DNA from: Mesoaciditoga lauensis cd-1655R = DSM 25116 | Lineage (GTDB): Bacteria > Thermotogota > Thermotogae > Mesoaciditogales > Mesoaciditogaceae | Direction: 5' to 3' | Length of the DNA: 44,633 nucleotides | Assembly (NCBI RefSeq): GCF_000745455.1 | Contig: NZ_JQJI01000018.1 | Span: 1-44,633, forward strand | Shown here: in pieces, positions 5,255 through 43,541 of the stretch | Position numbering within the stretch: the stretch's first letter is position 1 | Layout: each line of letters starts with the position of its first letter | Program-made: the position numbers and the translations under genes | Notes under the pieces: generated by a model | What the model saw: the letters and a program-made list of their open reading frames with translations, nothing else | Told to the model about the DNA's origin: nothing | The model's database searches: none

Positions 5255-5351
5255 TATTTCTTTGTAAAAGATCATATAAGAATTTCAAGAGTGAATTCGT
5301 GCTGGCTTGTGTTTCAAATTAATCATGCTTCTCTCTTCCTTTCTCTCTTCT

Positions 5352-5549: not shown

Positions 5550-5615
5550 TTTTACCTTCTTAAACCCGACGCATATCAAGAGTTGCATCATTTTCACCTT
5601 TTATCATGTTAATGG

Positions 5616-5624
5616 TGGTAGAAT
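5616..5624 (+). promoter_or_regulatory. Extended -10 promoter candidate upstream of udk
   Basis: TGGTAGAATT (TGn followed by TAGAAT at 5619-5624) lies 38 bases before the udk start, with only a weak -35. It has the same form as the candidates before rpsO and the yitT-like gene. Confidence 0.35.
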
Positions 5625-5661
5625 TTAAAGGTATAGAGCATGAAATGAAGGAGAGAAGAAT

Positions 5662-6288: not shown

Positions 6289-6342
6289 CGTGGTAAAATA
6301 CTTTGAAAGCTTAAAAAACAAAATTGGAAAGGATGAAGAAAA

Positions 6343-7380: not shown

Positions 7381-7396
7381 TGTTGGGAGGTATGAG

Positions 7397-8829: not shown

Positions 8830-8833
8830 TTTT

Positions 8834-10800: not shown

Positions 10801-10829
10801 AGATAAAGCTAAAAAAAGGCATCAAAAAA

Positions 10830-23086: not shown

Positions 23087-23099
23087 TTTGATTATCAAA
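23087..23099 (+). promoter_or_regulatory. Candidate operator over the ROK gene -35 box
   Basis: TTTGAT-T-ATCAAA is a perfect palindrome with a one-base centre. It covers the -35 box (23088-23093) of the ROK gene promoter. ROK regulators commonly control their own gene, so this is a reasonable operator candidate, but only one good copy was found. Confidence 0.4.
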
Positions 23100-23115
23100 A
23101 GGTTAAATGTATAAT
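23088..23115 (+). promoter_or_regulatory. Promoter of the ROK gene and sugar cluster
   Basis: TTGATT (23088-23093), a 16-base spacer and a perfect TATAAT (23110-23115). Transcription should begin near 23122. This puts the upstream in-frame ATG at 23107 outside the transcript and supports ATG 23146 as the real start of the regulator. Confidence 0.65.
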
Positions 23116-23145
23116 AGTTTCAGTCTGTTAGAAAGTAGGGATAAT

Positions 23146-24216
23146 ATGGATTCAAAAAGGCTAAGAAAAACAACATCAATTTTGAAAAATACGAACTCTT
23201 TTGAAATCTTGAGAGCTTTGTACATAGCCGGAACTAAGACGAGAACCGATCTTTCAAAAGAACTACATATAAGCTTACCAACGGTTTTACGTTCCATCGA
23301 TCCTTACTTAAACGAACTCATTTTTATTCAGGGGAAAAATGAATCAAAAGGTGGAAGAAGGCCTGAAAGGCTTACATTTAACTATTTCTACAGAAAAATA
23401 GGGGGGATCCAGGTTGATAAAAACTTCTTCACCATCTCAGTTTCGGATTTAAATAGAAAACCCCTCATAAAAGAAAAGGTTCCATTTGATTGTACCAATC
23501 CTCATATTTTGTCTAAAACTATTCATTCCACTCTTTTGCAATACTCTAGAAAGAATCTATTTTCTTCGTCGGATTTAGAAGTTCTTACCATTGCCGTGGC
23601 GGGATCTGTGAATGAAAAAGAGGGAATAGCCGTGGATTTTCCATTAAAGTGGAATGAAATCTCAACAAAAAGCTTTTTTGAGGGTAATTTCTACCAAGAT
23701 TTTCCCAATTGTACCGTAATATTTGAAAATGATGCCAATGCCCTGGCTATAGGAGAACTAGCGGACAGGGGATACAACAAAGAAAACATAATAGGTGTTT
23801 ATTTAAGTAGTGGCGTGGGGTTGGGCGTGGTTATAAATGGACGTCTTTACAGTGGAAGTCATGGAAGAGCTGGAGAGATAGGTGATTTCTTATCTCTTTT
23901 CGAGGTTGACAATGATATGGATTTCGAAAATTTTTTCAACGAATGTAAAGATAAGGAAAAAATTCTCATCCTTCAAAGACTGATAAACAATTTATCACTT
24001 CTCTTCGATCCTGATGAAGTAGTTGTGGCATGGGACTGGGAAAGAAACAAAGGATTTAAAGTTCTTCACGAATTATCCATTAACAATTCTTGGAAAATTT
24101 CTCGCCATGAAGATTTTGCCGTTGTAAATGGTGCTCTTTCTATAAGTGCTATGTCTTTTTTAAAAAAGATCGTTTATGGCGACGTGAAGAAAAATTACTT
24201 CGTCGAATTGTTGTAG
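23146..24216 (+). CDS. ROK-family transcriptional regulator
   Basis: 356 residues. An N-terminal winged helix (about 5-60: NSFEILRALYIAGTKTRTDLSKELHISLPTVLRSI) is joined to a ROK sugar-binding domain (GGIQVDKNFFTISVSD, ENDANALAIGEL, GVYLSSGVGLGVVINGRLYSGSHGRAGEIG). The Cys-rich zinc motif that usually follows GEIG is absent: the next segment is DFLSLFEVDNDMDFENF. It heads the sugar-use cluster and probably controls it in response to an imported sugar or its phosphate. Confidence 0.88.
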   Translation: MDSKRLRKTTSILKNTNSFEILRALYIAGTKTRTDLSKELHISLPTVLRSIDPYLNELIFIQGKNESKGGRRPERLTFNYFYRKIGGIQVDKNFFTISVSDLNRKPLIKEKVPFDCTNPHILSKTIHSTLLQYSRKNLFSSSDLEVLTIAVAGSVNEKEGIAVDFPLKWNEISTKSFFEGNFYQDFPNCTVIFENDANALAIGELADRGYNKENIIGVYLSSGVGLGVVINGRLYSGSHGRAGEIGDFLSLFEVDNDMDFENFFNECKDKEKILILQRLINNLSLLFDPDEVVVAWDWERNKGFKVLHELSINNSWKISRHEDFAVVNGALSISAMSFLKKIVYGDVKKNYFVELL

Positions 24217-24235
24217 TAGATATGGAGGGGGAAAA

Positions 24236-25198
24236 ATGAACTTTTTCTTGGGAGTTGATGGAGGAAATACAAAAACCACTTTTCTACTGTGTGATGAGGA
24301 AGGAAAAGTCATTTCTTATGCAAGAAAAGGGGGGACAAATCCCCAATCTTGTGGGGGAATAGAAGAAATGCTAAGAATCTTAAATGAAGGTATAAAAGAG
24401 ATATCCTTAGAATCCAAAATTGATAGAAAGAATTTCATATCGTATTTTGGCATGGCTGGTGCAGACAGAGAATCCGATTTCAAGATGATAAAAAGTGCAC
24501 TAGCACGAGTTGGATTAAGATCATTTGATCTTCAAAATGATGGTTTTATCGCTTTAAGATCTGGAACTCTTGATGGAAAAGGAATCCTTATAACTTGTGG
24601 TACCGGCAACACCAATTTTGCTTCAAATGGAAGAGAGGTAAAGAGAGTGGGAGGGCTTTCGCCCGCTCTAGGAGACGGATTGGGAACCAACTTGATAGCC
24701 TCAAAGGTAACATCTGCGGCGGTAAGGGCAAAAGATGGAAGAGGCCCTAATACCATCTTAAAAAACATTATAGAAGACAAATTAAAAATGGAAGTCGAAG
24801 ATCTCATAAGCATAAATATAAAAAAGGAAGATCCCGTACCATTGGTAATAGAGTCGTTGTTTGAAGCTGCCGAAAAATTTGATATGGTCGCCCTTTCAAT
24901 ACTTAAAGAAGTAATAGAGGAGATAAGCAGGATAGCAAACATATTCAGATTTTCACTTTTTCCCAAGAGAAAAAAAGTGAAATTGATTTTGGATGGTCCT
25001 TTCTTTAAGCACGCCCATCCACTTTTCTTCGAGTCTCTTAAAAATTATTCATGGGAAGGGTATCAAATCGTCGTTCCTCAACATGATCCAGTTGTGGGAG
25101 CCGTTTTGTTAGCGATGGAAAGAGAAGGAATAGGTTCAAAAAATATAGCAAAAAAAGTGATAAGGGAATACCTTCGCATAGTTAAAAAGGAGGAGTGA
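24236..25198 (+). CDS. BadF/BcrA-family ATPase, probable N-acetylhexosamine kinase
   Basis: 320 residues of the actin/hexokinase fold: phosphate 1 motif GVDGGNTKTTFLL, FGMAGADRESD, phosphate 2 region GILITCGTGNTNFA and GGLSPALGDGLGTNL. The closest functional group by layout is the N-acetylglucosamine kinase (NAGK)-type branch of BadF proteins. GGAGGG precedes ATG 24236. Placed directly before a GH4 enzyme whose class normally acts on 6-phosphates, it may phosphorylate the imported sugar; the substrate is inferred. Confidence 0.82.
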   Translation: MNFFLGVDGGNTKTTFLLCDEEGKVISYARKGGTNPQSCGGIEEMLRILNEGIKEISLESKIDRKNFISYFGMAGADRESDFKMIKSALARVGLRSFDLQNDGFIALRSGTLDGKGILITCGTGNTNFASNGREVKRVGGLSPALGDGLGTNLIASKVTSAAVRAKDGRGPNTILKNIIEDKLKMEVEDLISINIKKEDPVPLVIESLFEAAEKFDMVALSILKEVIEEISRIANIFRFSLFPKRKKVKLILDGPFFKHAHPLFFESLKNYSWEGYQIVVPQHDPVVGAVLLAMEREGIGSKNIAKKVIREYLRIVKKEE

Positions 25199-25204
25199 TA
25201 AATT

Positions 25205-26482
25205 ATGAAAATCTGTGTTGTGGGTGGTGGTAGTAGCTATGAGCCAGAATTGTTGGATGGATTCTTCACCTATGAAAAAGAGATGAGCATCGATGAGATA
25301 CATCTTCTTGATGTTGAAGAAGGAAAAGAAAAACTTAAAATCGTAACTGATTTTGCAAAAAGAATGGCAAAGAAAAAAGGATCCAAAATAAAGATTTTTT
25401 CTTCGTTAGATGCAAAAGAGGCCATGTCAGATGCGGATTTTGTGATATTTCAATTTAGGCCTGGTTTTTTAGATGGCAGAGAAAGAGATGAAAAGATTCC
25501 ACTCGGTTATAACCTCATAGGCCAGGAAACAACAGGAATGGGCGGATTTGCGGCTGCCCTTAGGGGTTTCCCCATAATGGAAAAATATATTGAGTACGTT
25601 AGAAAATACGCTCCTAACGCTTTCGTGATCAACTTTACGAACCCTTCAGGACATATGAGTGAGTTTGTACTCAACTACCTTGAATTCAACAAATTCGTGG
25701 GTTTATGCAACATTCCAATAAACCTTATTCAGTACATAGCAGATACTTATAAGGTCGAAAGGGATAAAATATTTCTCAAATATTACGGATTGAATCATCT
25801 TAGTTTTGTGGAAAAGATATTTGTAAGTGGTAAAGATAAGAGCGAAGAAATGCTCGGTCGTTCTCGTGAAGCTTTAAAAGAAGAAGGATATCCAGAATGG
25901 GTTGTGGATGCTCTTCAACTTTATCCCAACTCGTATCTAAGATACTACTTCATGACGCAGACAATGCTTTCACACGAGTTGGAAGAGTTAGAAGAAGGGA
26001 AATTACGTTCAATGGTCGTAAAAGGCATAGAAAAAGAGCTTTTCAATATATATTCAAATCCGGATGTAGATGAAAAACCGAAGGAGCTTGAAAAAAGAGG
26101 TGGAGCTATGTACTCAACGGCAGCCGTTGAGTTAATGAGAGATATGATCACAGGCAGACATGCCCATCATGTTTTAAACGTTCGCAACAATGGAGGGATT
26201 GCGAACCTTCCTGATGATTACGTCTTGGAACTCTCTTGCGATGTTAATGGAGAGAACGTCTTCCCAATTTCTGTTGGAAATGCTCAACCTTTTGCTCTTG
26301 GAATTATCCATATCATCAAGCAATACGAAAGACTAACCATAGAAGCTTACAGAAGCGGATCAAAGAACAAAGCATTGCAAGCGATTCTTCTTCATCCACT
26401 TGGCCCGGGCATGGAAAAAGCCAGGGAATTTTTAGATGATCTGTTAAGGGCAAATAAAGGATGGATAAAAGAATTGAAATGA
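25205..26482 (+). CDS. GH4 glycosidase, 6-phospho-beta-glucosidase type (CNxP signature)
   Basis: 425 residues. An N-terminal NAD-binding fold (KICVVGGGSSYEPELLDGF), FVINFTNPSGHMSEFV (about 141-156), the metal-binding signature C168-N-I-P171 in GLCNIPINL, and YYGLNHLSF with H198. CNxP marks the 6-phospho-beta-glucosidase branch of family 4, which includes E. coli ChbF/CelF. These enzymes use NAD+ and Mn2+ and an oxidation-elimination route. With no PTS in sight, the phosphate may come from the kinase just upstream. Confidence 0.9.
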   Translation: MKICVVGGGSSYEPELLDGFFTYEKEMSIDEIHLLDVEEGKEKLKIVTDFAKRMAKKKGSKIKIFSSLDAKEAMSDADFVIFQFRPGFLDGRERDEKIPLGYNLIGQETTGMGGFAAALRGFPIMEKYIEYVRKYAPNAFVINFTNPSGHMSEFVLNYLEFNKFVGLCNIPINLIQYIADTYKVERDKIFLKYYGLNHLSFVEKIFVSGKDKSEEMLGRSREALKEEGYPEWVVDALQLYPNSYLRYYFMTQTMLSHELEELEEGKLRSMVVKGIEKELFNIYSNPDVDEKPKELEKRGGAMYSTAAVELMRDMITGRHAHHVLNVRNNGGIANLPDDYVLELSCDVNGENVFPISVGNAQPFALGIIHIIKQYERLTIEAYRSGSKNKALQAILLHPLGPGMEKAREFLDDLLRANKGWIKELK

Positions 26483-26490
26483 TATTTAAA

Positions 26491-26511
26491 TGGTCATGTA
26501 AAACATGACCA
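26491..26511 (+). promoter_or_regulatory. Perfect hairpin/palindrome before the SBP gene
   Basis: TGGTCATGT-AAA-ACATGACCA: a 9-bp perfect inverted repeat with a three-base loop, 8 bases after the GH4 stop and 29 bases before the binding-protein start. No T run follows, so a processing hairpin or an operator is more likely than a terminator. Confidence 0.5.
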
Positions 26512-26540
26512 CGTAAAAAATCGTGTGGGAGGTGTCAACT

Positions 26541-28196
26541 GTGAAGAAAGTTGTAGTGGTAACGCTACTGGTGTTTGTCATAGGTATAATGGCCTTTGGC
26601 AGTTCTGTGAAGTACGGAGGGGTAGTCAATCTCGGTGGAAGCGCTCCAACATATGTCGTCAATAATTTCAACCCTTTCAGTCCAAATCCAGATCCTGGAG
26701 TGCATTTTGTTTACGAACCTCTTATGTACGTTAACCCCCTGAATGGCAAAGTCACGCCATTTCTTGCTACATCGTACGAATGGTCAAATAACGGTCAAGT
26801 GCTAACTGTAACGATAAGACAAGGGGTAAAATGGAGTGATGGGGTTCCCTTCACGCCCGAAGACGTGGTGTTCACCTTTAACCTTCTGAAAAAATTTCCT
26901 GCATTGGATACGAATGGAGTATGGTCAAATCTTTCTGGCCTTCAAAGCGTTGAGGCAAATGGTCAAAAAGTCATCTTCAAATTCTCTCATCCCAACATTC
27001 CTGAATATTTCTATATTTTGCGTACTTTGATAGTCCCGGAGCATATATGGTCTAAAATAGAAAATCCAGTCAGTTTCTTGAATTCCAGCAACCCAGTTGG
27101 AACAGGGCCTTTCTTGAGAGAAACGTACAGCGTTGCAAACAATACCGAATATTTTGCCAAAAACCCTGGTTATTGGTGGAAAGGAAGGCCTTACATAGAT
27201 GGAATAAGAATCATCGGTAACACGTCAAACCAGGCTGCTTTCCTTCAGATGATCAAAGGTGAAACCGATCAAAACGATATAGCAATTGAAATGCCAGAAA
27301 AACTTTGGGTTTCAAGGGATCCAAAAACTCATATTCTGTTCTGGCCAGTCCATAGTGACAACATTTTGTACATGAACGACGCAAAGGAGCCATTTAAAGA
27401 GGCAACTTTCAGAAAAGCCATAGCGTTGGCAATAAACAAACGTTTGTTAGAAGATAGAGCTTATTTCGGTGCAGGCGGTTATGATATAAGTCAAACTCAA
27501 ATAATACCAGCGCAAAAAGACGAATGGTATGATCCTAGTTTGGCAGAAACAGATAAGCTTTACAACAGTTACAATCCTAAAAAAGCCATGGAACTCTTAA
27601 CTTCTATTGGTTATAAGAAAAACGAAAGTGGCATTCTCGAAAAAGATGGAAAAGCTTTACCAACTTTCCGTATACTGGTAGGAGCCGGATGGACAGATTT
27701 TATAACGATGGCTCAAATAATTTCTCAAGAACTCAAAGATATAGGAATTCAAACCACAATAGTTCAACAGTCTTATAACACTTATTTGCAACAGTTGATG
27801 ACGGGAGATTTTGATATGGCAATAGGTTGGCCGCCAAATACAGGACCTACCCCGTTCTATGCCTATTATTCAGAATTCAATCCCTCTTTCTCCGCACCGC
27901 TTGGAAAGACAGCCATTTCTGATTACAGCCGCTATACAAATTCGATTATAACGGAGGCTCTTAGAACTTTCTCGTCTTCTAGTGATAAGGAAACTCAAAA
28001 AGAAGCAATGTACAAGATTGAAAAGACCGTCTTGAATGATTTGCCAGCTATAGTTCTTACCACGCGAACAGGCTTTGATCTTTACAACGCTTCAAAATTT
28101 GTAGGATGGCCAACTATTTCCAATCCTTACAGTAATGGTTGGAATGGTACAGGTCTTGGCATGTTACCAGTTGTTTTAACACTTCATCTCAGATAA
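26541..28196 (+). CDS. Family 5 (Opp/Dpp-type) solute-binding protein, probable oligosaccharide binder
   Basis: 551 residues with an N-terminal signal sequence (KKVVVVTLLVFVIGIMAFGSS). Family landmarks are TPFLATSYEWSNNGQVLTVTIRQGVKWSDGVPFTPEDVVFTF and FRKAIALAINKRLL. GTG 26541 is chosen over 26523 because GGGAGGTG is six bases upstream and the signal peptide then starts with MKK. In Thermotogota, Opp-type binding proteins often carry oligosaccharides rather than peptides; the sugar-enzyme context supports that here. Confidence 0.9.
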   Translation: MKKVVVVTLLVFVIGIMAFGSSVKYGGVVNLGGSAPTYVVNNFNPFSPNPDPGVHFVYEPLMYVNPLNGKVTPFLATSYEWSNNGQVLTVTIRQGVKWSDGVPFTPEDVVFTFNLLKKFPALDTNGVWSNLSGLQSVEANGQKVIFKFSHPNIPEYFYILRTLIVPEHIWSKIENPVSFLNSSNPVGTGPFLRETYSVANNTEYFAKNPGYWWKGRPYIDGIRIIGNTSNQAAFLQMIKGETDQNDIAIEMPEKLWVSRDPKTHILFWPVHSDNILYMNDAKEPFKEATFRKAIALAINKRLLEDRAYFGAGGYDISQTQIIPAQKDEWYDPSLAETDKLYNSYNPKKAMELLTSIGYKKNESGILEKDGKALPTFRILVGAGWTDFITMAQIISQELKDIGIQTTIVQQSYNTYLQQLMTGDFDMAIGWPPNTGPTPFYAYYSEFNPSFSAPLGKTAISDYSRYTNSIITEALRTFSSSSDKETQKEAMYKIEKTVLNDLPAIVLTTRTGFDLYNASKFVGWPTISNPYSNGWNGTGLGMLPVVLTLHLR

Positions 28197-28204
28197 ATTC
28201 CATG

Positions 28205-28238
28205 ACAAAAGGCATTGCCAAAAGGCAGTGCCTTTTGT
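28205..28238 (+). terminator. Stem-loop after the first binding-protein gene
   Basis: A 15-bp stem with one G.T pair (28205-28219 with 28224-28238, AAAA loop) lies in the gap before the permease gene. It ends in CCTTTTGTTAAAT, so it may partly stop transcription or protect the upstream mRNA. This would let the binding protein be made in excess of the permeases. Confidence 0.65.
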
Positions 28239-28279
28239 TAAATCTGTAGATAGAGAGAGGCAGAGAGGAGGATCCATCT

Positions 28280-29254
28280 TTGAAATACCTGTTGAATAAA
28301 ATTGCTTTCTTCCTTATAACGCTATGGGTGGCCATGACTATAAATTTTATGTTACCACGTCTCATGCCGGGAAACCCTGCAATTGCAATGATCGCAAGAT
28401 ATAAGGGAAGAATAAGCATCCAGGCGTTACATTCCATTGAGGTGGCTTTTGGATTGAACGTTCATCAGAACATCTTTCAACAGTACATCTCTTACATTGG
28501 GCGCACTCTAACTTTTAACTTTGGGACTTCATTGGTTTATTATCCTTTATCCGTTTCTGAAGAGATAGCCATTCATATGCCCTGGACAATAGGGTTAATG
28601 GGTATAACAACCGTGATTTCTTTTATCGCAGGCACATGGATAGGAATCAAAGCGGCTTGGAGAAGAAATTCTCCGCTAAGTAGTTCAAGCGTTGTTATAA
28701 GTCTTTTTCTGAACAGCGTCCCTTATTTTTGGATCGCCCTTCTATTTCAATACATCTTTGGATTTGTGCTGGGTTGGTTTCCCATTTCAGGGGCTTATTC
28801 CATTACCCAAACAGGAGGATTGAATCTAATCGGGTCCATACTTTATCATGCTATTTTGCCGTCCTTAACCATTTTCATCACTTCAATGGGTGGTTGGATA
28901 CTAACAATGAGAAATAACATGATTGACGAGCTCTCAAGTGATTATTCTGTTTTTGCCTATGCCAAAGGCCTTCCTGAGAAAAGAATTGAATACAATTACG
29001 TTGCTCGAAATGCGATATTACCAAATTTTACTCAATTTGCCATGGCAATAGGTTTTATCGTTAGTGGTGCACTTCTTACAGAAATGGTTTTTTCATATCC
29101 CGGGATTGGATACGTTTTGTATCAATCAGTCATAGGATTGGATTATCCGTTAATGCAGGCTTTGTTTTTCTTCATAACTCTTTCGGTACTTGTTGCGAAT
29201 TTTATAATGGATCTCCTTTACATATTGGTTGATCCGAGGGTAAGGGTGGAATAA
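28280..29254 (+). CDS. ABC transporter permease, DppB/OppB type
   Basis: 324 residues with about six membrane segments. The N-terminus KIAFFLITLWVAMTINFMLPRLMPGNP is typical of DppB. The coupling loop toward the ATPase is seen in YSVFAYAKGLPEKRIEYNYVARNAILP, and the ending is VDPRVRVE. TTG 28280 follows GAGAGGAGGATCC. It is the first membrane subunit of the five-gene importer. Confidence 0.93.
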   Translation: MKYLLNKIAFFLITLWVAMTINFMLPRLMPGNPAIAMIARYKGRISIQALHSIEVAFGLNVHQNIFQQYISYIGRTLTFNFGTSLVYYPLSVSEEIAIHMPWTIGLMGITTVISFIAGTWIGIKAAWRRNSPLSSSSVVISLFLNSVPYFWIALLFQYIFGFVLGWFPISGAYSITQTGGLNLIGSILYHAILPSLTIFITSMGGWILTMRNNMIDELSSDYSVFAYAKGLPEKRIEYNYVARNAILPNFTQFAMAIGFIVSGALLTEMVFSYPGIGYVLYQSVIGLDYPLMQALFFFITLSVLVANFIMDLLYILVDPRVRVE

Positions 29255-29257
29255 GTC

Positions 29258-30103
29258 ATGAAATATCTTAACATATTTTTAAAGGATAAAAGGATATTTG
29301 CCGGCACGTCTATATTACTTCTGTTAATAATAGTTGCCATTTTTGCTCCGTATATAGCACCTTATTCACCTCATTATATGGGATTTGTTCCCTTGCAACC
29401 TCCATCTCTTAAACACCTTCTTGGAACTACTGCCACAGGACAAGACGTTTTTTCGCGAGTCATTTGGGGAACCAGGATATCTTTGCTTGTAGGACTGTTA
29501 GTTGGGGCGTTCACAACTATAATTTCGGTAGCGTTGGCACTTTTTTCCGGCTTTTTTGGTGGCATAGTCGATAACATAATCTCCTTGATCATAAACGTTT
29601 TCTTGGTAATACCCCCCCTTCCGCTGATGATAGTTCTTGCCGCGTATATGCCAAACAAGGGGATGTGGTCGATAATATTCGTTATAACCATTACCGGTTG
29701 GGCGTGGGGGGCAAGAACTTTAAGACCTCAGGTGATGTCCATAAGAAACAGGGATTTCGTCAACGCATCTGTTATCGTTGGAGAAAATTCTTTCCATATC
29801 ATCTTTGTGGACATTCTTCCTCATATTCTCGGGCTCGTCGTTGCAAATTTCTTTGGAACTGCGATGTATGCGGTAATAAGTGAAGCCGGCCTTGAATTCA
29901 TAGGACTCGGAAACGTCAACGATATATCGTGGGGAACCATTCTCTATTGGGCCGAAAACGATCAAGCCATATTCTTTGGGTTATGGAGTTGGCTATTGGT
30001 ACCTGGAGTTTTGATAGCTTTATTGGGAACATCTATGGCCCTCATGAACTTTGCCGTAGACGAAATAATAAATCCAAAACTTAAAGGTGAGAAAAATGGC
30101 TAA
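29258..30103 (+). CDS. ABC transporter permease, DppC/OppC type
   Basis: 281 residues. The N-terminal segment ends in APYSPHYMGF, followed by HLLGTTATGQDVFSRVIWGTRISLLVG, which is diagnostic for DppC-type permeases. The coupling loop is seen in DFVNASVIVGENSFHIIFVDILPHI. It starts three bases after the dppB-like stop and overlaps the next ATPase gene by 8 bases. Confidence 0.93.
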   Translation: MKYLNIFLKDKRIFAGTSILLLLIIVAIFAPYIAPYSPHYMGFVPLQPPSLKHLLGTTATGQDVFSRVIWGTRISLLVGLLVGAFTTIISVALALFSGFFGGIVDNIISLIINVFLVIPPLPLMIVLAAYMPNKGMWSIIFVITITGWAWGARTLRPQVMSIRNRDFVNASVIVGENSFHIIFVDILPHILGLVVANFFGTAMYAVISEAGLEFIGLGNVNDISWGTILYWAENDQAIFFGLWSWLLVPGVLIALLGTSMALMNFAVDEIINPKLKGEKNG

Positions 30104-31103
30104 AATTCTTCAAGTTAAAAATCTGAACGCTGGCTACGAATTCAACGGCACTACCATTTACGCTGTTCGAAACGTCTCATTTGATCTTGAAAAAGGGGAA
30201 TTTTTGGGAATAGCCGGTGAGTCCGGATGTGGGAAGTCTACCCTCGCTTTTTCGATATCACGATTGCTTAAGTCACCAGGTAAAATCTTCAGTGGAGAGG
30301 TGTTTTTCGAGGGGAAAAATATCCTCAAGATGAAAGAAGAAGAGGTAAGGCAACTTCGCTGGAAAGAATTTTCAATAGTGTTTCAAGCTTCCATGAACGT
30401 GTTAAATCCAATAATGAAGGTTAAAGATCAAATCTACGATGCAATCACGTATCATTCCCATGAATACGATGAGAGGCTTTATGAGCGTGCTAAAGAACTT
30501 ATGGAATATGTGAACATCTCACCAAAATATTTAGAAGCTTATCCTCATCAATTAAGTGGCGGAATGAAACAAAGGGTGGTAATCGCCATTGCGCTAGCGT
30601 TAAACCCTAAACTCATCATAATGGACGAACCCACCACGGCACTGGATGTGGTCGTTCAGAGAAGAATACTACAACAAGTCGATAAATTGAGAAAGAAATT
30701 CGGATTTGCCGTTATCTTTATAACACACGACCTATCATTGCTTATAGAAATTTCAGATACCCTGATGATCATGTATGCAGGACGCATAGTAGAAAAGTGT
30801 GCTGCAAGGGAAATATTTGCCAAACCACTTCATCCCTATACGTACGGCTTAATGAATTCATTCCCACCTTTGACGGGAAAAAGAAAAAGACTCCATGGAA
30901 TTCCGGGTTATCCTCCAGATCTCTCCCATTCCATTCAGGGCTGTGCATTTTACGAACGCTGTTCAAAAGCGATAAAAGGAAAGTGCGATGTGGTTGAACC
31001 AGAACTTGTGGAAGTTGAACCTCAGCACTTAGTTGCCTGTAATTTGTATGAAGAAAGCTATAAGGAAGGTGCTAAAGATGGAACTCCTGCAAGCGGACGT
31101 TAA
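30096..31103 (+). CDS. ABC transporter ATPase, DppD/OppD type
   Basis: 335 residues. Walker A GESGCGKST, signature LSGGMKQRVVIAIALALNP, Walker B LIIMDEPTTALD and the oligopeptide-family C-terminal Fe-S-type Cys region (GCAFYERCSKAIKGKCDVVEPE...VACNL). ATG 30096 follows AAAGGTGAG. It pairs with the following DppF-like ATPase. Confidence 0.94.
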   Translation: MAKILQVKNLNAGYEFNGTTIYAVRNVSFDLEKGEFLGIAGESGCGKSTLAFSISRLLKSPGKIFSGEVFFEGKNILKMKEEEVRQLRWKEFSIVFQASMNVLNPIMKVKDQIYDAITYHSHEYDERLYERAKELMEYVNISPKYLEAYPHQLSGGMKQRVVIAIALALNPKLIIMDEPTTALDVVVQRRILQQVDKLRKKFGFAVIFITHDLSLLIEISDTLMIMYAGRIVEKCAAREIFAKPLHPYTYGLMNSFPPLTGKRKRLHGIPGYPPDLSHSIQGCAFYERCSKAIKGKCDVVEPELVEVEPQHLVACNLYEESYKEGAKDGTPASGR

Positions 31104-32076
31104 AGTGAAAGCACTGATGAAAATTGAGAATTTGAACAAAATATTTGTGATCGGGACTTTGAAGAGAAAATACGTTCATGCGATCAACGATCTAAGCTTG
31201 GATATTGGCTACAAAGAAGTTGTAGCACTTGTTGGAGAGTCTGGTAGTGGAAAAACCACGGTGGCGAGGGTAATATCAAAATTGTACCGTCCAACATCTG
31301 GAAAAATATATCTGGAGGGAGAGGAAGTTGGGAAAAAAATGCGGCGTTCAGCTCTTCTTGATTACAGAAAGAAAGTGCAGATGATCTTTCAGGATCCTTT
31401 TTCTTCACTGAATCCCCTTTACCCGGCAAGTTATGCCGTGTTGAGACCATTAAAAGTACACAGAATTGCAAATTCCAAAAAAGAACGAGAAGAGATGGCA
31501 AAAAATGTTCTTGAAGAGTGCGGGCTGATGCCAGCAGAGAATTTTTTGAGCCGCTATCCTTATGAACTTAGTGGAGGGCAAAGACAAAGGCTGGGTATAG
31601 CACGTGCTCTAGCAACTCGGCCAAAACTCGTTTTAGCCGATGAGCCCACTTCAATGCTAGACGTATCCATAAGACTGGATATCATGAACCTTATGTTGGA
31701 CTTAAAGGAAAAAGAGGGAATATCTTATCTTTTTATAACACACGATCTTGCAGGAGCGCACTATATGGCTGATAGAATAGCCATTATGTACGCAGGCCAT
31801 CTTATGGAAATTGGCCCTTCTGACAACGTTATAAATTTTCCAAAACATCCTTATACTCAGTTGCTTAAAAAAGCTGCCCCTAAGCCTGAAGCCGATCTAG
31901 AACCGGAAAAAATAGAAGTGGGAGGAGAAGTGCCGGATCTCACCAATCTTCCAAAGGGTTGTCCTTTTGAGCCCAGGTGTCTATTTGCAAGACCAGAATG
32001 CAAAGAAGGACTCCCGAAAATGGTAAAGGTAGGAGAAAACCATTACGTGAGGTGCTTACTTTATAAAGAAGAATAA
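31078..32076 (+). CDS. ABC transporter ATPase, DppF/OppF type
   Basis: 332 residues. Walker A GESGSGKTT, Q-loop IFQDPFSSLNPLYP, signature LSGGQRQRLGIARALATRP, Walker B LVLADEPTSMLD and a C-terminal Cys-bearing tail (CPFEPRCLFARPECKEG). ATG 31078 fits GGAAGGTG upstream and overlaps the preceding gene by 26 bases; ATG 31117 is a possible alternative. It completes the Opp-type importer. The second importer in this cluster has no ATPase of its own. Confidence 0.93.
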   Translation: MELLQADVKVKALMKIENLNKIFVIGTLKRKYVHAINDLSLDIGYKEVVALVGESGSGKTTVARVISKLYRPTSGKIYLEGEEVGKKMRRSALLDYRKKVQMIFQDPFSSLNPLYPASYAVLRPLKVHRIANSKKEREEMAKNVLEECGLMPAENFLSRYPYELSGGQRQRLGIARALATRPKLVLADEPTSMLDVSIRLDIMNLMLDLKEKEGISYLFITHDLAGAHYMADRIAIMYAGHLMEIGPSDNVINFPKHPYTQLLKKAAPKPEADLEPEKIEVGGEVPDLTNLPKGCPFEPRCLFARPECKEGLPKMVKVGENHYVRCLLYKEE

Positions 32077-32107
32077 GATTTGAAAAATCCTAGAGGAGGT
32101 TTTGACG

Positions 32108-32833
32108 ATGGAAAAAGAGATGATCGATTTCATACATAAGGCCCTTCCGCTACCAAACATAGAAGAAAGAAAAAATGTTGTATGTGTCCTGCCACACCCA
32201 GATGATGGAGAAATCGGGGCAGGTGGTACCGTTGCCAAATTAAAAAGTAAAGGTGCAACGGTAAGATATGTTCTCGTTACCGATGGAGGCGCCGGTATCA
32301 GAGGAAAAAGTAGGGAAGAAACAAAGAAGATCAGAAAAAAGGAGCAGGAAACAGCCGCTAGCATATTAGGTATTGATGAGATAAGATGGTTGAACTACCC
32401 TGACGGTGGAGAATACGAGTTAAAAAATGTCAGAGAAAATCTAAGTGAGATATTTAACGACATCAAGCCAGATTTGATCATAACCGTCGATCCATTTTTA
32501 CCCTACGAATCTCATCCTGATCATAAAATATGCGGATTAGCCACTATTCAAACTCTCTTATTCGATTATCATAATCCATCCGTTCCGATTGCTTTCTTTT
32601 TCACAGCATATCCAAATCAATTTATATGTGTTGAAAAACAATGGGACAAAAAGTTTGAATCCATTTTTTCTCATAAGAGCCAAATTGGTCCTGAAATAGC
32701 CGAAATATTCAAAAAGTATTTTGAGACAAAAGGCAATATTTACGGAAGAAAAATAGGTTGTAAATATGCGGAAGGGTTTAAGGTTCTAATTCCCTTAATG
32801 CTTCATGCCTTTGAAGAAACCTTATGGATATAG
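32108..32833 (+). CDS. PIG-L/LmbE-family deacetylase, probable N-acetylhexosamine deacetylase
   Basis: 241 residues. The zinc motif PHPDDGEIG (about 29-37) and the later HPDHK supply the His-Asp-Asp-His set of the PIG-L family, and the TDGGAGIRGKSREE loop is present. Known members deacetylate GlcNAc groups, including the archaeal diacetylchitobiose deacetylase of chitin breakdown. ATG 32108 has GGAGGT seven bases upstream. No signal peptide is seen, so it acts in the cytosol, after import. Substrate is inferred from the cluster. Confidence 0.88.
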   Translation: MEKEMIDFIHKALPLPNIEERKNVVCVLPHPDDGEIGAGGTVAKLKSKGATVRYVLVTDGGAGIRGKSREETKKIRKKEQETAASILGIDEIRWLNYPDGGEYELKNVRENLSEIFNDIKPDLIITVDPFLPYESHPDHKICGLATIQTLLFDYHNPSVPIAFFFTAYPNQFICVEKQWDKKFESIFSHKSQIGPEIAEIFKKYFETKGNIYGRKIGCKYAEGFKVLIPLMLHAFEETLWI

Positions 32834-32851
32834 GAAGGAGGAGGTAAAAAA

Positions 32852-34114
32852 ATGAAAAGAATTTTAGGTGTAAGCTTATTACTTCTTTTTTGCATCTCTT
32901 CTTTGTTTTTCGCCCGCACAACGGTAACTTTTATGACCGATTGGACGGGACCTGAACTCAACGTAATCACTTCTATAGCAGAACAGTTCAATTCTTCACA
33001 AAACAAATATACTCTTAAAGTGGTGACTGTAAGCAATCTCGCAGAAAAATTCTTAACTTCGCTTGCAGCTGGAAATCCTCCAGATATTCTCCATGCAAAT
33101 CATCAATATATAGCACCACTTGTGGCAATGAATGCTGTTGAACCGATCGATGATGTCACAAAATATGGAGCCAACTTGAATGAATACCGTGAAGAAGTCT
33201 TAAAAAGCGCTCAGTATCACAATCATCTCTATGCTATTCCCATGAAACTGGATATATTTGGACTTTTTTGGAACAAGGAATTATTCGAAAAGGCCGGCTT
33301 AGACCCTAATCACCCACCCGCAACTTTAGAAGAGTTAAAGGAATATGCGAAAAAGCTTACAAAGCGTGATTCCAACGGTGATATAAAGCTTCTTGGATTT
33401 GATCCGGGTTACAGCGATAAATGGACGTGGGCATATGTATGGCCATATTACTTTGGAGGAAAAGTTGTAGATGAAAAGACGGGGGCGATAACGGCTAACA
33501 GCCCAATATGTATAAAATCCTATGAATGGTTCCAAGACTTATCAAAGATGTACGGAACGAAGGAGCAGCTAGAAAAATTCGTGGGGGGTTACGGTCCTTA
33601 TTGGTCGGCAAGTAATCCTTTTATAGCGGGAAAAGTGGCCATGACATTTGGGGGAGATTGGATCGCGAAAATAATCGATCTTTACAACCCGACCATGAAG
33701 TGGGGCTTTTCCTGGTTTCCAAGCGCTGATGGCAGCGCAAAAGCTTACACAGAAATAGACATGGCTGTCATTCCAAAAGGGGCCAAACATGTAAAGGGGG
33801 CTAAAGAATTTTTGGCATTTCTCTCAAAACCACAGAATCTTCTTAAATTTCTTACACCTGTTCCTGTCCTGAAAGAAGAATACGTTAAGAAATATGAAAA
33901 ATTCATGGTTACATATCCCCATAGAAAACTTTTCACTGAAATTTTCGATAAAGTCCATCTTTTCTTTGCGCCTACCACGCCAGTGTGGCAAAAGTACAAC
34001 GATTTTTTAAAGAGTGCCTTTCTTGATGTGATATTTTTGAGAACATCTCCAAAAGATGCGCTCAATACCGTTCAAGAGAAAATGAAAAGAGTCTTGCAGA
34101 TGATGGGACAGTAA
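32852..34114 (+). CDS. Family 1 sugar ABC transporter substrate-binding protein
   Basis: 420 residues with a signal sequence (KRILGVSLLLLFCISSLFFA), then TVTFMTDWTGPELNVITSIAEQFN and the usual hinge region YAIPMKLDIFGLFWNKELFEKAGL. It belongs to the maltose/multiple-sugar (CUT1) binding-protein group, with no lipobox Cys at the expected place. GGAGGAGG precedes the ATG. It starts the second importer of the cluster. Confidence 0.92.
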   Translation: MKRILGVSLLLLFCISSLFFARTTVTFMTDWTGPELNVITSIAEQFNSSQNKYTLKVVTVSNLAEKFLTSLAAGNPPDILHANHQYIAPLVAMNAVEPIDDVTKYGANLNEYREEVLKSAQYHNHLYAIPMKLDIFGLFWNKELFEKAGLDPNHPPATLEELKEYAKKLTKRDSNGDIKLLGFDPGYSDKWTWAYVWPYYFGGKVVDEKTGAITANSPICIKSYEWFQDLSKMYGTKEQLEKFVGGYGPYWSASNPFIAGKVAMTFGGDWIAKIIDLYNPTMKWGFSWFPSADGSAKAYTEIDMAVIPKGAKHVKGAKEFLAFLSKPQNLLKFLTPVPVLKEEYVKKYEKFMVTYPHRKLFTEIFDKVHLFFAPTTPVWQKYNDFLKSAFLDVIFLRTSPKDALNTVQEKMKRVLQMMGQ

Positions 34115-34119
34115 AAGAT

Positions 34120-34159
34120 AAGCAAGAAGTGTCCTGGTTAAACCAGACACTTCTTGCTT
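34120..34159 (+). terminator. Strong stem-loop after the second binding-protein gene
   Basis: An inverted repeat of about 17 bp with one bulged C (34120-34137 with 34143-34159) follows the stop by five bases and is followed by TTAAGTTAA. As after the first binding protein, it may attenuate transcription into the permeases or protect the upstream mRNA. Confidence 0.7.
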
Positions 34160-34187
34160 TAAGTTAATCCAATATGGAGGGATACGA

Positions 34188-35078
34188 TTGACTATAAGGA
34201 AAAGAAAAGAACTCATGTGGGGAATAATTTTCGTCTCGCCATGGATAATAGGGCTTGCATTATTTTATTTCTACCCAATGGCCACTTCTTTATACTACAG
34301 TTTTACAAGATATACCGTCATTCGCCCCCCAAAATGGATAGGTTTAATGAATTACAAATGGCTTTTGACGGACAATCTTTTTTGGACATCCGTTAAAAAC
34401 ACTTTCTACTTCATGATAATAGGTGTTCCTCTTACCCAAATGATTGCTCTTGTGGTGGCTTACATGTTTTATCAAGTAAAAGATAATAAGGTTTTAAGTT
34501 CTTTAAAAGTTTTTTATCTTTTTCCAGTTTTAGTACCTGGTGTTATTCTCGCAATAGTATGGGATCTTATGCTAAACAGTCAATATGGAGTTTTCAACTT
34601 CTTTCTTCGTCTCCTTGGAATAAATGGTCCTAATTGGTTAGAAAGCACGTTTTGGTCCAAGCCATCTATAATACTAGTTGGAATATGGTACATAGGCATG
34701 AGCATGATAATTTACGTTGCAGCACTTAACGATGTCCCAAAGGAGCTTTACGAAGTTGCCGATATAGATGGAGCAACCTGGTTGACAAAACTATCAAAGA
34801 TAACGATTCCAATGGTTTCTCCAGCGGTTCTTTTTAACGTGATAACCGGCATGATATCGATTATCCAACTTTTCGACTTGCCATACATATTAACCAGCGG
34901 CGGCCCATCTCATTCCAGTTACACTTGGGCCATGCAGATATACGATAATGCATTCACGTATATGAACATGGGATACGCTTCTGCTTCAGCATGGTTGATG
35001 TTCATAGTCACTTTAGCCCTCACCATATTGGTGTTTGTCATCAGTAAGAAGAAAATTTACTACGGGGGTGAGGGCTAA
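34188..35078 (+). CDS. Sugar ABC transporter permease (MalF/UgpA type)
   Basis: 296 residues, about six membrane segments. The coupling loop reads YEVADIDGATWLTKLSKITIPMVSPA (EAA-type), followed by DLPYILTSGGPSHSSYTW. TTG 34188 follows GGAGGGATACGA. It is the first membrane subunit of a CUT1-type importer. Confidence 0.94.
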   Translation: MTIRKRKELMWGIIFVSPWIIGLALFYFYPMATSLYYSFTRYTVIRPPKWIGLMNYKWLLTDNLFWTSVKNTFYFMIIGVPLTQMIALVVAYMFYQVKDNKVLSSLKVFYLFPVLVPGVILAIVWDLMLNSQYGVFNFFLRLLGINGPNWLESTFWSKPSIILVGIWYIGMSMIIYVAALNDVPKELYEVADIDGATWLTKLSKITIPMVSPAVLFNVITGMISIIQLFDLPYILTSGGPSHSSYTWAMQIYDNAFTYMNMGYASASAWLMFIVTLALTILVFVISKKKIYYGGEG

Positions 35079-35079
35079 A

Positions 35080-35913
35080 ATGAAGCGACATGCACATGGC
35101 AAACTCATAGTGGCGATCGTCTTAATAATTCTTGCGGTAATTTTTGCTTTTCCTTTTTATTGGATGGTGATAACCTCTCTTGAGCCTTTGAAAGATTTCA
35201 TGAAACTTCCAATTTCATTTTTTCCTAAACATTTCCTTTTCCAAAATTACGCTCGCGCAGTTCATTACATTCCATTTTTTACTTACTTTAAAAATTCGAG
35301 TTGGATTGCTATTATGAGTACACTAGGTGCAACTTTAACATCTTCTTTTGTTGCATATGGTTTTTCAAAGATCAAATGGCCAATGAGAGACACACTTTTT
35401 ATGATCACATTGGCAAGTATGATGATTCCTTTTGTGGTGCTTATGATACCTCTATATATAGAGTTTAAGAATTTTGGATGGATAGGAACTTTTAAACCAC
35501 TCTGGCTTCCGTGGTGGTTTGGAAGTGCATGGAGCATTTTCTTCTTACGGCAGTTCTATATGACGATTCCAAATGAACTGATAGATGCCGCAAAAGTGGA
35601 TGGGGCTTCTCATATACAAATATGGTTCAGAATAATGCTTCCTTTAACAAAACCTGCTCTTTCGGTGGTTGCTCTGTTCAATTTCATATGGTCGTGGCAA
35701 TCATTCTTACAGCCTTTGGTTTTTCTCAACGATAAAAGCATGTACACTTTAACACTCGGATTGGCTTCTTTTCAACAAAGACATGGGGGCGTAGAATGGA
35801 ATCTTTTAATGGCCGCTGCCACGTTGGCAACAATTCCTATTCTGATCATTTTCATATTTATGAATAAGTATCTGATCGAGGGTATACACATAACATCTGG
35901 ATTGAAGGGGTAA
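35080..35913 (+). CDS. Sugar ABC transporter permease (MalG/UgpE type)
   Basis: 277 residues. FPFYWMVITSLEPLKDF near the start, and the coupling loop LIDAAKVDGASHIQIWFRIMLPLTKPALS, are typical of the second CUT1 permease. ATG 35080 with GGGGGTGAGGG upstream is chosen over the longer frame. No MsmK-type ATPase follows; a shared ATPase encoded elsewhere is probably used, as is common for CUT1 importers. Confidence 0.94.
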   Translation: MKRHAHGKLIVAIVLIILAVIFAFPFYWMVITSLEPLKDFMKLPISFFPKHFLFQNYARAVHYIPFFTYFKNSSWIAIMSTLGATLTSSFVAYGFSKIKWPMRDTLFMITLASMMIPFVVLMIPLYIEFKNFGWIGTFKPLWLPWWFGSAWSIFFLRQFYMTIPNELIDAAKVDGASHIQIWFRIMLPLTKPALSVVALFNFIWSWQSFLQPLVFLNDKSMYTLTLGLASFQQRHGGVEWNLLMAAATLATIPILIIFIFMNKYLIEGIHITSGLKG

Positions 35914-35917
35914 ACAG

Positions 35918-37219
35918 ATGAAAAGAATAAAGGTAGATGTTTCTCCTATTGAGCGTTTTACAACTAAAATATTTAAAATGAGGGTTGAAAAGGGAACAAC
36001 TGAAATCCGTCTGCGTTTAGTTGAGAGTTCGACAAAAGCAGGTAATGAATTAAAAATCTTGATTTACGATGCATGCGGAGATTTTAGAGGATGGATGGAT
36101 AAAAATAAAGACGAACTTCTTTTGAAGAAAAATGGATCTAGTTTGAATGGGGTAAGTGGCTACTTACCAGAAGGTGAGTGGAAAATTTTGATCGAGTTTG
36201 GAATGATCACCAACTATTTTCTCTGTGAAATAGAAGAAGATTCCCGTTTTACTCCATCAAACGAAGAATGGTTCGTTGGAGAATTACATTCTCATACAAC
36301 AAAAAGCGATGGAGCGATGAGCATAGAAGAACTGCTCAAGGAAGCTAAAGACCATGGACTGGATTTCATCTTCATCACAGATCATGATGTACCGCTTCTA
36401 ACAAACGAAAGAAATAAAAACGAAGGAAGTTTTAAAGTGTTTCCAGGTACGGAGTTAACCACATATAAAGGTCACGCACTTGCTTTGGGAATTAGCAGAC
36501 ACGTGAATCCCACCCTTTTGCATGAGAGCCTTGAGGATGCCTCAAATCTTGTGAAAAGTGAAGGAGGCATTTTTGGAATAGCGCATCCTTTCTTTCCGCC
36601 TAGCCCTTATTGTAGTGGATGCAAATGGAGTTACAACGTCTCCCCGAAATTCATAGATTTTCTGGAAATATGGAACAGTGGGGGAACAGGAGCGTTATTT
36701 CCAGCGTTTAATTTCGCATCTTTATCGTTGTGGACGGAATTTTTAAACGATGGGTATAGAATTTCGGCGACATCAGGTGGAGATATCCATCGCCGCGGAG
36801 ATTTCAACGATCTTTGGCTTCCCTATCACGTTAGAACAAACGAAATTGAATTGAAACAGATCCTTTGTTCTATAAGATCCGGTAAAAGTTACGCATCCAG
36901 AGGGAAGTTTTTCTTTGAAGCCTTTTACAGGAACAGAACTTATCAGTGTGGAGATGTCGTTAAAATAAGCGATGGCAATTCATTTGAAATACACGTGAAA
37001 ACAGAAAACGCCAGCAAAATCTTGTTGATGAGTTCAAAGGGAGTGGTGATGGTTGACAGCTCTTTTGTCAACAAAAAAATGGAGCTCGATGGCATCCGCT
37101 GGATAAATGCCGTGGCACTTTATAAAAACTTCATCGTGGGATTTTCTAATCCAATATATTTTGACTATTTTGAGCATCTCGATTATACTAACGACAAAAA
37201 AGAAGATTGTGCACTTTGA
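35918..37219 (+). CDS. PHP-domain metallohydrolase (CehA/McbA family)
   Basis: 433 residues. After an N-terminal beta-rich part (about 1-115), the PHP motifs appear: WFVGELHSHTTKSDG, DFIFITDHDVP, FPGTELTT, GIAHPFFPPSP and SGGDIHRRGD near 290. These supply the His/Asp metal ligands. A C-terminal beta-rich part of about 100 residues follows. CehA/McbA relatives split phosphoesters or carbamate-type bonds; the substrate here is unknown. The position between importer and sugar enzymes suggests a sugar-linked ester or phosphate. Confidence 0.82.
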   Translation: MKRIKVDVSPIERFTTKIFKMRVEKGTTEIRLRLVESSTKAGNELKILIYDACGDFRGWMDKNKDELLLKKNGSSLNGVSGYLPEGEWKILIEFGMITNYFLCEIEEDSRFTPSNEEWFVGELHSHTTKSDGAMSIEELLKEAKDHGLDFIFITDHDVPLLTNERNKNEGSFKVFPGTELTTYKGHALALGISRHVNPTLLHESLEDASNLVKSEGGIFGIAHPFFPPSPYCSGCKWSYNVSPKFIDFLEIWNSGGTGALFPAFNFASLSLWTEFLNDGYRISATSGGDIHRRGDFNDLWLPYHVRTNEIELKQILCSIRSGKSYASRGKFFFEAFYRNRTYQCGDVVKISDGNSFEIHVKTENASKILLMSSKGVVMVDSSFVNKKMELDGIRWINAVALYKNFIVGFSNPIYFDYFEHLDYTNDKKEDCAL

Positions 37220-37231
37220 AGTGAGAGGAGA

Positions 37232-38284
37232 ATGATGAGCAACTTCGAAGAAGAAATAAAAGAACAACCAGGTGCTTTACAACGATTTTTAAATAGTATA
37301 TCGTCTCTCAGAAAAACGCTACTCAGAATTGCGAGTTTTCATCCAATAAGGATTGCTTTCTTTGGAATGGGAAGCTCTTTGTATGCCACTATTCCTGCCG
37401 TATATCTTCTTCGTTCTGCTGGAATAAGTGCCAATTATTATGACGCTTCTGAGGCTTTATGGTATATACCACAAAAATGGTTTGATAACATTGATATGTG
37501 CGTATTTGTATCTCAATCGGGAGAAACCATAGAGATACGAAAACTTCTTGATAAGATAAGAAACTCCAAAGTGTTAAAAGTGGGAATAACGGCAAATACC
37601 AAAAGTTATGTTGCTAACAATTGTGATGAGGTTATCGATATTTTTACGGGAAAAGAAAGGGCTCTCGGCTCAACTAAAACCCATATGAATTCCGTAGTGG
37701 CTTCTCTTGTTCTCTCCATGTTTTTAGCAAATTCAGAAGGCCAAGTGAAGCATCTTATGAAATTGCCTTCAATTGTAAACGATAGTATTTTGAGGGCTTC
37801 TTCAACAGTTGAAGACCTTTTTAAAAAGATCGATGTCAATAAGTTCAACGACTCCGTGATAACTTCAAGAGGATTCTTACTTGGGGAAGTTTATCAATCT
37901 GCTTTGACACTTAATGAGATAAGTCGTGTAAGCGCTCTTGCAATATCTACCGGAATGCTAAAACACGGACCTATGGAAATATTTTCCGAAAGAAGGGGAA
38001 TAACATGTTTCGTTCCAAGTTCATCTGTTAGAACGTTGTTGATCAAATTTTGCCAAAGTATTGTAAGCCATGTCGACTTTATTTGGATAATGTCAAATGG
38101 AGCGCTTGATATAGAGTTATCTCCACATCTTTTCAAAGTGGAAACGAATTTTGATTTGCCAGAATATCTCCAAGGTCTGATCTTTTTACCCTATATCCAA
38201 ATTCTTGCTTACAGAATAAGAAAAATGAAGAATCTTGAAGATGATGAATTTTATTTTATAAAAAAGGTAACCACGGAGGAATGA
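37232..38284 (+). CDS. SIS-domain protein, GlmS isomerase/GlcN6P deaminase-like
   Basis: 350 residues with two SIS domains. The opening EEEIKEQPGALQRFL matches the isomerase half of GlmS, followed by FFGMGSSLYAT, CVFVSQSGETIEIRKLL and ALGSTKTHMNSVVAS. There is no glutaminase domain, so it may work as a glucosamine-6-phosphate deaminase/isomerase like archaeal GlmD, or on another amino-sugar phosphate (AgaS type). ATG 37232 follows GAGAGGAG. It would take the product of deacetylation and hydrolysis into glycolysis (inference). Confidence 0.83.
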   Translation: MMSNFEEEIKEQPGALQRFLNSISSLRKTLLRIASFHPIRIAFFGMGSSLYATIPAVYLLRSAGISANYYDASEALWYIPQKWFDNIDMCVFVSQSGETIEIRKLLDKIRNSKVLKVGITANTKSYVANNCDEVIDIFTGKERALGSTKTHMNSVVASLVLSMFLANSEGQVKHLMKLPSIVNDSILRASSTVEDLFKKIDVNKFNDSVITSRGFLLGEVYQSALTLNEISRVSALAISTGMLKHGPMEIFSERRGITCFVPSSSVRTLLIKFCQSIVSHVDFIWIMSNGALDIELSPHLFKVETNFDLPEYLQGLIFLPYIQILAYRIRKMKNLEDDEFYFIKKVTTEE

Positions 38285-38286
38285 CT

Positions 38287-40673
<2,387 letters not shown>

Positions 40674-40714
40674 ATTTGCGTTGGTAAGTGAATGGTAGGA
40701 GGAAAAAGCGGAGA

Positions 40715-41938: not shown

Positions 41939-41939
41939 T

Positions 41940-43073: not shown

Positions 43074-43541
43074 ATGATGGGTAGTAAGTAGTGAACAGGA
43101 GGTAATCAGGTAACTTCTCAAAAGGGGTTCATGTCAAGCACAGAATCTCGTTTTGTACTGCTATCTTATTGAAGATCCTGAATAGTTTCTTCGAAACTTG
43201 TAGAATGAGTGTGTTTAGGAAAGGTAGGTATTGTTCAATGGGAGATCATCGGGGTAAAAGACAGAGACTCGTAACTTGATTAGCAAAGAGGAAGAAACTA
43301 AACGTTTGAAGTCTAACGACAAAGGCATCATATGGACGCTGAGTGAGTTATCAGGCCATAATGTAAATGAACACATAGGTAGCCTTGTAAAAAAGTTTAA
43401 ACACCACGAGTTGGGCTCTTTCGTCCCGATCGAAAGCAGCATAAACGCATGAATGCGGGTGGAGGGATGTATTCATCCTGAGGGGGGTAGTAGCGGCGGC
43501 ACGATGATAAGGATATGCCATTCAACTGGAAAAAACCTTTC
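43074..43541. other. Gene-poor stretch rich in hairpins; unassigned
   Basis: No convincing gene. On the + strand there are several stems: AGTTTC-ttc-GAAACT (43187-43201), TTTCG/CGAAA (about 43421-43437), CGCAT-ga-ATGCG (about 43446-43457), GGATG-tatt-CATCC (about 43466-43479) and GGCA/TGCC (about 43498-43519). The part 43450-43505 is G-rich compared with the flanks. A frame of about 60 codons ending at 43452 reads like protein in places, so a decayed gene or mobile element remains possible. Confidence 0.35.

Follow-up and report, generated by a model that had tools for sequence, protein, structure and literature searches.

Gene Organization of the Locus

The DNA analysed here (the window) is a stretch of 44,633 nucleotides that makes up contig C14 (NZ_JQJI01000018.1, Mesoaciditoga lauensis) of the 2.17-Mb genome of a heat-loving Thermotogota bacterium of Mesoaciditogaceae type. 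According to its list of open reading frames (ORFs), 18 consecutive genes, all on the + strand, occupy ~20 kb of the window (23146-43073). All intergenic gaps between 23107 and 43073 are ≤84 bp. The run begins with a ROK regulator gene followed by BadF, GH4, OppABCDF, PIG-L, MalEFG, PHP, SIS, PfkB, an AglA-type GH4, and two MFS genes. It is probably a ROK-controlled operon for the uptake and breakdown of beta-linked disaccharides ending in N-acetylglucosamine (GlcNAc), with chitobiose as the likeliest substrate, in a cell that lacks a phosphotransferase system (PTS) and a recognisable NagA. Protein families, active-site residues, gene order and its recurrence, and the absence of HPr are read from the sequences, and from these we infer every substrate and every reaction proposed below.

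23088-23115, + strand: candidate operon promoter, TTGATT-16-TATAAT; position conserved in genomes G014 and G013
23118-23134, + strand: candidate operator, a 17-bp palindrome, TTTCAGTCTGTTAGAAA; position conserved in G014 and G013
23146-24216, + strand: ROK-family transcriptional regulator (PF00480, 6e-21; NagC is the top regulator model, far under its cut-off)
24236-25198, + strand: BadF/NAGK-type sugar kinase of a GH4-linked clade (PF01869, 2e-36; matches MurK, hexokinase, and NAGK structures)
25205-26482, + strand: predicted GH4 6-phospho-beta-glycosidase, BglT/ChbF-like, with a CNIP motif (BglT, 1.4e-133; ChbF, 38% identity)
26523-28196, + strand: Opp-type oligosaccharide-binding protein, OppA (Vibrio chitooligosaccharide-binding protein, 1e-64)
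28280-32076, + strand: OppB, OppC, OppD, and OppF, permeases and ATPases of an ABC importer (ORFs and sequence reading; G014 orthologues 72-87% identical)
32102-32833, + strand: PIG-L (CE14) deacetylase, Dac-like (Dac structures, 1e-43; active site conserved)
32852-35913, + strand: MalE-MalF-MalG-type ABC importer (binding protein nearest to the mannan-oligosaccharide binder MBP1)
35918-37219, + strand: PHP-domain metallohydrolase of the CehA/McbA family (NF038032, 162.8 bits, cut-off 80)
37232-38284, + strand: SIS protein with a GlmS isomerase active site by residue alignment, a putative glucosamine 6-phosphate (GlcN6P) deaminase
38281-39228, + strand: PfkB-family sugar kinase, ribokinase-like (PF00294, 3e-48)
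39225-40673, + strand: second GH4, AglA type, with a CHGH motif (NF041089, 800.9 bits, cut-off 650)
40688-43073, + strand: two MFS transporters at the end of the run (ORFs)

An earlier note on this DNA had described the first part of the run (23146-38284) as a PTS-independent counterpart of the E. coli chb pathway. The genes it named (ROK, BadF, GH4, OppABCDF, PIG-L, and SIS) are all intact on the + strand where it placed them, and its ROK regulator at the head of the set agrees with the start at 23146. However, it omitted MalEFG, the PHP protein, PfkB, the AglA-type GH4, and the two MFS transporters, which lie inside that range or continue it. An alternative ROK start (ATG at 23107) overlaps the -10 box, and the start at 23146 was taken. 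A promoter scan gave 58 matches vs. 52 expected and is uninformative by itself, and a palindrome search within the window came out near chance level. The candidate promoter and operator are credible only because of their position and its conservation in G014 and G013.

Recurrence of the Cluster in Other Genomes

The grouping is more than chance, because the order ROK-BadF-GH4-OppABCDF-PIG-L recurs in G014 and because BadF adjoins GH4 in 26 of the 29 Thermotogota genomes that carry this GH4 (29 of 103). The remaining half of the run, MalEFG-PHP-SIS-PfkB-AglA-MFS, lies on contig C9 in G014. G013 has GH4-PIG-L-MalE-MalF and no Opp genes. Elsewhere, PIG-L-BadF-GH4 is followed by a GPH-type symporter (e.g., G062), and G089 has SIS-PIG-L-BadF-GH4. 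Outside the Thermotogota, a metagenome-assembled genome (MAG; locus L169) has nagB-BadF-GH4-PIG-L in a row; a wider search of 52 genomes of its phylum found no second case of this arrangement. G011, which belongs to the same family as the genome of the window, has SIS-PfkB-OppA-OppB-OppC-BadF'-PIG-L-OppA-GNAT-GH20 in one operon, and its Opp proteins are 68-70% identical to those of the window. The genomes compared are related, their counts are not independent events, and some contigs end inside clusters.

What do these arrangements indicate? PIG-L and the kinase occur together with GlcN6P deaminases of two unrelated kinds, and a GH20 hexosaminidase takes the place of GH4 in G011. Taken together, these contexts suggest that the substrate is an oligosaccharide of N-acetylhexosamine that is degraded to GlcN6P. 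The product is probably GlcN6P, because a nagB or SIS gene adjoins the PIG-L-BadF-GH4 triad elsewhere. This is the strongest evidence overall, and it is evidence of context, not of activity.

A GNAT acetyltransferase that is not among the 18 operon genes is 63% identical between G011 and G013 (L036, 4737-5714; L147, 333-1331) and lies near SIS-PfkB in both.

The Predicted Deacetylase

The best solved relatives of PIG-L are the archaeal diacetylchitobiose deacetylases (Dac; 1e-43), well ahead of BshB-type enzymes. The zinc triad His-Asp-His (H32, D35, and the histidine of PYESHPDH) and the catalytic Asp (D34, Asp42 in Dac) are present and invariant in 11 relatives. H235, also invariant, corresponds in a gapless alignment to Dac His259, a catalytic residue contributed by the neighbouring subunit. 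The pocket for the acetyl methyl group (Ile46, Phe219, Trp227, and Ile260 in Dac) is hydrophobic yet altered (Ile38, Ile195, Phe203, and Ala236). The structure match and active-site residues support the earlier proposal that PIG-L would act as the deacetylase in place of ChbG. No ChbG-type (YdjC-fold) deacetylase was found among the scanned operon proteins, the part of the genome to which this search was limited. No NagA scored over the cut-off in the genome. A GlcNAc user without NagA needs another deacetylase, and PIG-L would supply it, as Dac does in Thermococcus.

Automatic models rank PIG-L nearest the bacillithiol deacetylases. That role was rejected, as PIG-L scores 84.4 bits vs. a cut-off of 182.5 for BshB1 and 89.8 vs. 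195.25 for BshB2. Dac-like PIG-L genes were also seen beside a GH1 beta-glucosidase-type enzyme with MalEFG in G003 (L038, 548-2656) and beside an AglA-type GH4 at a contig end in G002 (L031, 10662-11941).

The Kinase and the GH4 Glycosidase

The GH4 carries both GH4 domains (PF02056 and PF11975), and its CN-x-P motif (C168-N169-I170-P171) confirms the type given in the earlier note. Thermotoga maritima BglT is its best structural match, and automatic models rank it nearest 'alpha-galactosidase'. The enzyme had been called an unrelated stand-in for ChbF, but the two are homologous members of one family.

Where do PTS-free bacteria obtain the 6-phospho substrates of a GH4 enzyme? No answer was found in the literature searched. 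In the 26 genomes mentioned above, the BadF gene lies on the same strand as GH4 and within ≤65 bp of it; in the other 3, the genes are on separate contigs. HPr is present in 0 of the 29 GH4-bearing genomes vs. 12 of the 74 other Thermotogota (Fisher p = 0.018, not corrected for relatedness). A search of the genome of the window found no HPr either, which bears out the claimed independence from the PTS. The adjacency and the lack of HPr suggest that BadF is, as proposed, a probable 6-kinase feeding a 6-phospho GH4. They also offer a directly testable answer to the question of substrate source.

The GH4-linked kinases are 37-69% identical to BadF of the window, whereas BadF paralogues are only 25-29% identical. 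Furthermore, most GH4-linked kinases carry an FFGERLGS-type loop at a site where the paralogues differ. By kinase, the nearest named relatives are MAGs labelled 'Thermotogae bacterium' and 'Mesoaciditogaceae bacterium'. The predicted structure of BadF confirms the MurK/NAGK kinase fold and is silent on the acceptance of a disaccharide. Vibrio GspK is a glucosamine kinase of the BadF family. The chances are about even that BadF uses ATP to phosphorylate, at position 6, an amino-sugar disaccharide inside the cell (GlcN-GlcNAc or chitobiose) and so supplies a GH4 that elsewhere depends on a PTS, and that its clade is a general replacement for the PTS for such GH4 enzymes in Thermotogota.

Importers and the Second Half of the Operon

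The best solved relatives of OppA are the Vibrio substrate-binding proteins (SBPs) for chitin oligosaccharides, which bind (GlcNAc)2. OppA retains Asn204, Trp363, Asp365, and Trp513 of the Vibrio chitin-oligosaccharide-binding protein (CBP), four residues that are also found in cello- and manno-oligosaccharide SBPs (residues are numbered as in the CBP paper; the sequence index is the paper number + 2). Together with the absence of Arg436 and Phe437 (see below), this places OppA in the fold cluster but speaks against a chitin-specific site that has stayed the same. MalE of the second importer is closest to the mannan-oligosaccharide SBP MBP1.

The SIS protein matches the isomerase site of E. 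coli GlmS (SQSGET, STK, Glu488, His504 in LKHGP, and Lys603) and has no glutaminase domain. The roles of these residues are known from established work on GlmS. The best equivalog family of SIS after GlmS is NagB_SO3506; the best one for BadF is NagK_SO3507. Thermococcus GlmD is also a SIS-type deaminase, as its NCBIfam name indicates. Two other assignments were set aside. A fructosamine (FrlB/FrlD) role of SIS-PfkB is disfavoured, since SIS resembles GlmS and NagB-II more closely, and the region of the catalytic lysine is missing from FrlB. An AgaS-type GalNAc route was discarded because the AgaS-type sequence is unlike the SIS of the window.

The second half of the run may belong to a different pathway. 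In that case, an amino-sugar disaccharide would be handled by ROK-BadF-GH4-Opp-PIG-L and some other substrate by MalEFG-PHP-SIS-PfkB-AglA-MFS, an arrangement of two joined pathways that is possible but the less likely one. SIS would then not be the deaminase of the first half but, e.g., a deglycase or isomerase; the chitobiose-type reading of the first half is compatible with such a division. The MBP1-like MalE fits it, a chitobiose route has no use for AglA and MFS, a single NagB-type gene is present elsewhere in the genome (on C19; 236.6 bits vs. a cut-off of 236.9), and SIS-PfkB lies on another contig in G013. However, a single operon of G011 combines SIS and PfkB with Opp, BadF', PIG-L, and GH20. 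Likewise, SIS keeps GlmS residues, including the lysine, that are absent from FrlB and AgaS, and PIG-L runs directly into MalE in both the window and G013.

Several observations accompany these genes. The PHP (CehA/McbA) gene is also present in G014 and lies near GH4 in G002. Elsewhere in the genome of the window, on C13, MalEFG, SIS, BadF, and a LacD/DeoC-type aldolase stand in a row (L152, 8222-14185; partly also in L148 and L154) and may form a second sugar-phosphate pathway. On C6, an Opp importer, GH3, a BadF kinase, a beta-lactamase-fold protein, and AnmK stand in a row (L151, 1348-12419), probably a locus for muropeptide recycling. Just downstream of the operon, the window has a match to group II intron D1-D4 (RF02003, 61 bits; 43236-43366) and, near the contig end, a transposase-like ORF on the - strand (43784-44485).

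Proposed Route and Its Alternatives

In the proposed route, the Opp-type importer would take in the disaccharide unphosphorylated. Dac-like PIG-L would strip the acetyl group from the non-reducing GlcNAc, and BadF would use ATP to phosphorylate O6 of that residue, the two steps occurring in either order. With NAD+ and a divalent metal, GH4 would then split the 6-phospho-disaccharide into GlcN6P and GlcNAc. The released GlcNAc would be deacetylated by PIG-L and phosphorylated by a BadF-type kinase. Finally, the GlmS-like SIS protein or the NagB of the genome would convert GlcN6P to Fru6P and ammonia, with PfkB perhaps acting next.

A number of findings weigh against this route. The Vibrio CBP residues that read the N-acetyl group, Arg436 and Phe437, align with Ala and Ile in OppA, and no GH18 chitinase was found in the genome. 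Chitobiose is thus not established as the substrate that the earlier note took it to be, although it remains the likeliest candidate. SIS scores far below the cut-offs for NagB-II (68.8 vs. 430 bits) and GlmD (34 vs. 580 bits), and its suggested role as deaminase is plausible from the GlmS residues it keeps but is tempered by these scores and by the NagB-type gene. Similarly, BadF meets PF01869, yet scores 63.5 bits vs. a cut-off of 370 for NagK (SO3507 type). The PDB title of BglT names it a 6-phospho-beta-glucosidase. In many genomes, BadF-GH4 is not accompanied by PIG-L; in G004 and G099, the pair stands beside a DegT aminotransferase. The pair is therefore not specific for chitobiose and probably serves more than one sugar.

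The DegT-type loci are L142 (G004, 277-3795) and L144 (G099, 2122-10836); the latter also has MalEFG, ROK, and a Gfo/Idh/MocA oxidoreductase. Their layout recalls that of kanosamine-type 3-amino sugars, here with an importer.

The change at the N-acetyl-reading residues raises the prospect, which we consider rather unlikely, that the first half handles another GlcNAc-terminated conjugate, such as GlcNAc-hexose from glycans or cell walls, by the same chemistry on a different aglycone. OppA keeps the general sugar-binding residues but not the ones that recognise the N-acetyl group at the reducing end, Dac reads chiefly the non-reducing GlcNAc, and the second SBP is similar to one for mannan oligosaccharides. 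On the other hand, the best solved relatives of both OppA and PIG-L act on (GlcNAc)2, and mapping the OppA site by sequence is uncertain at 30% identity.

Still less probable is that BadF and GH4 work together as kinase and hydrolase on ordinary beta-glucosides (e.g., cellobiose), with PIG-L and SIS as chance neighbours that have other tasks. The nearness of GH4 to BglT, solved as a 6-phospho-beta-glucosidase, and the many pairs without PIG-L would agree with this. However, PIG-L is under the BshB1 and BshB2 cut-offs and matches Dac structures far better than those of other PIG-L proteins. It lies within 10 kb of GH4 in 8 of the 29 GH4-bearing Thermotogota genomes, and it joins BadF-GH4 in several arrangements, also with nagB or SIS.

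If the proposed route is correct, a chitobiose-type pathway would have been put together from a ChbF-like GH4, a stand-alone kinase, and a deacetylase of archaeal type. The automatic annotations of GH4 and PIG-L would then be corrected.

Comparison with Known Systems

The window appears to mix known modules in a combination of which no description was found in the limited open-access literature searched, in keeping with the earlier remark that it is not known as a described pathway. Each part has separate precedent in Vibrio, Thermococcus, Shewanella, or E. coli. In E. coli, chitobiose is imported by the PTS (ChbBCA) and deacetylated by ChbG, and the GH4 enzyme ChbF then cleaves the 6-phospho disaccharide to GlcN6P and GlcNAc (PMC12791066). 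The window would share the deacetylation and the GH4 cleavage, but it has ABC import and BadF for the PTS, PIG-L for ChbG, and no NagA was found in its genome.

In Thermococcus kodakarensis, Dac acts on unphosphorylated (GlcNAc)2 and GlcNAc, followed by the non-phospho glucosaminidase GlmA (PMC6566704). Both systems have a Dac-type PIG-L and a SIS-type deaminase (putative in the window), whereas the window has a kinase and GH4 for GlmA. Vibrio imports chitobiose by an ABC system and splits it with a phosphorylase (PMC12791066); the Opp-type importer with a CBP-like SBP is common to both, but Vibrio uses neither GH4 nor PIG-L. The GlcNAc route of Shewanella replaces the PTS with a permease and a kinase (NagK) and has a second type of GlcN6P deaminase, NagB-II (PMC2996990). 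A kinase likewise seems to take the place of the PTS in the window, but the Shewanella route is a monosaccharide route with NagA, and BadF and SIS are far under the NagK and NagB-II cut-offs.

Two systems come from the phylum itself. The T. maritima BglT locus resembles the window in its GH4 (1e-133), and the same BadF-GH4 pair occurs in the genomes of genus g35, but PIG-L is missing in g35; a role for the kinase gene beside BglT was not found in the literature searched, nor were papers on TM1280/TM1281. The Thermotoga ChiR regulon is ROK-regulated and combines ABC import of chitobiose with the non-phospho hydrolase CbsA and NagAB (PMC3750489). It shares ROK control and ABC import with the window, but it is a regulon without PIG-L, BadF, and GH4.

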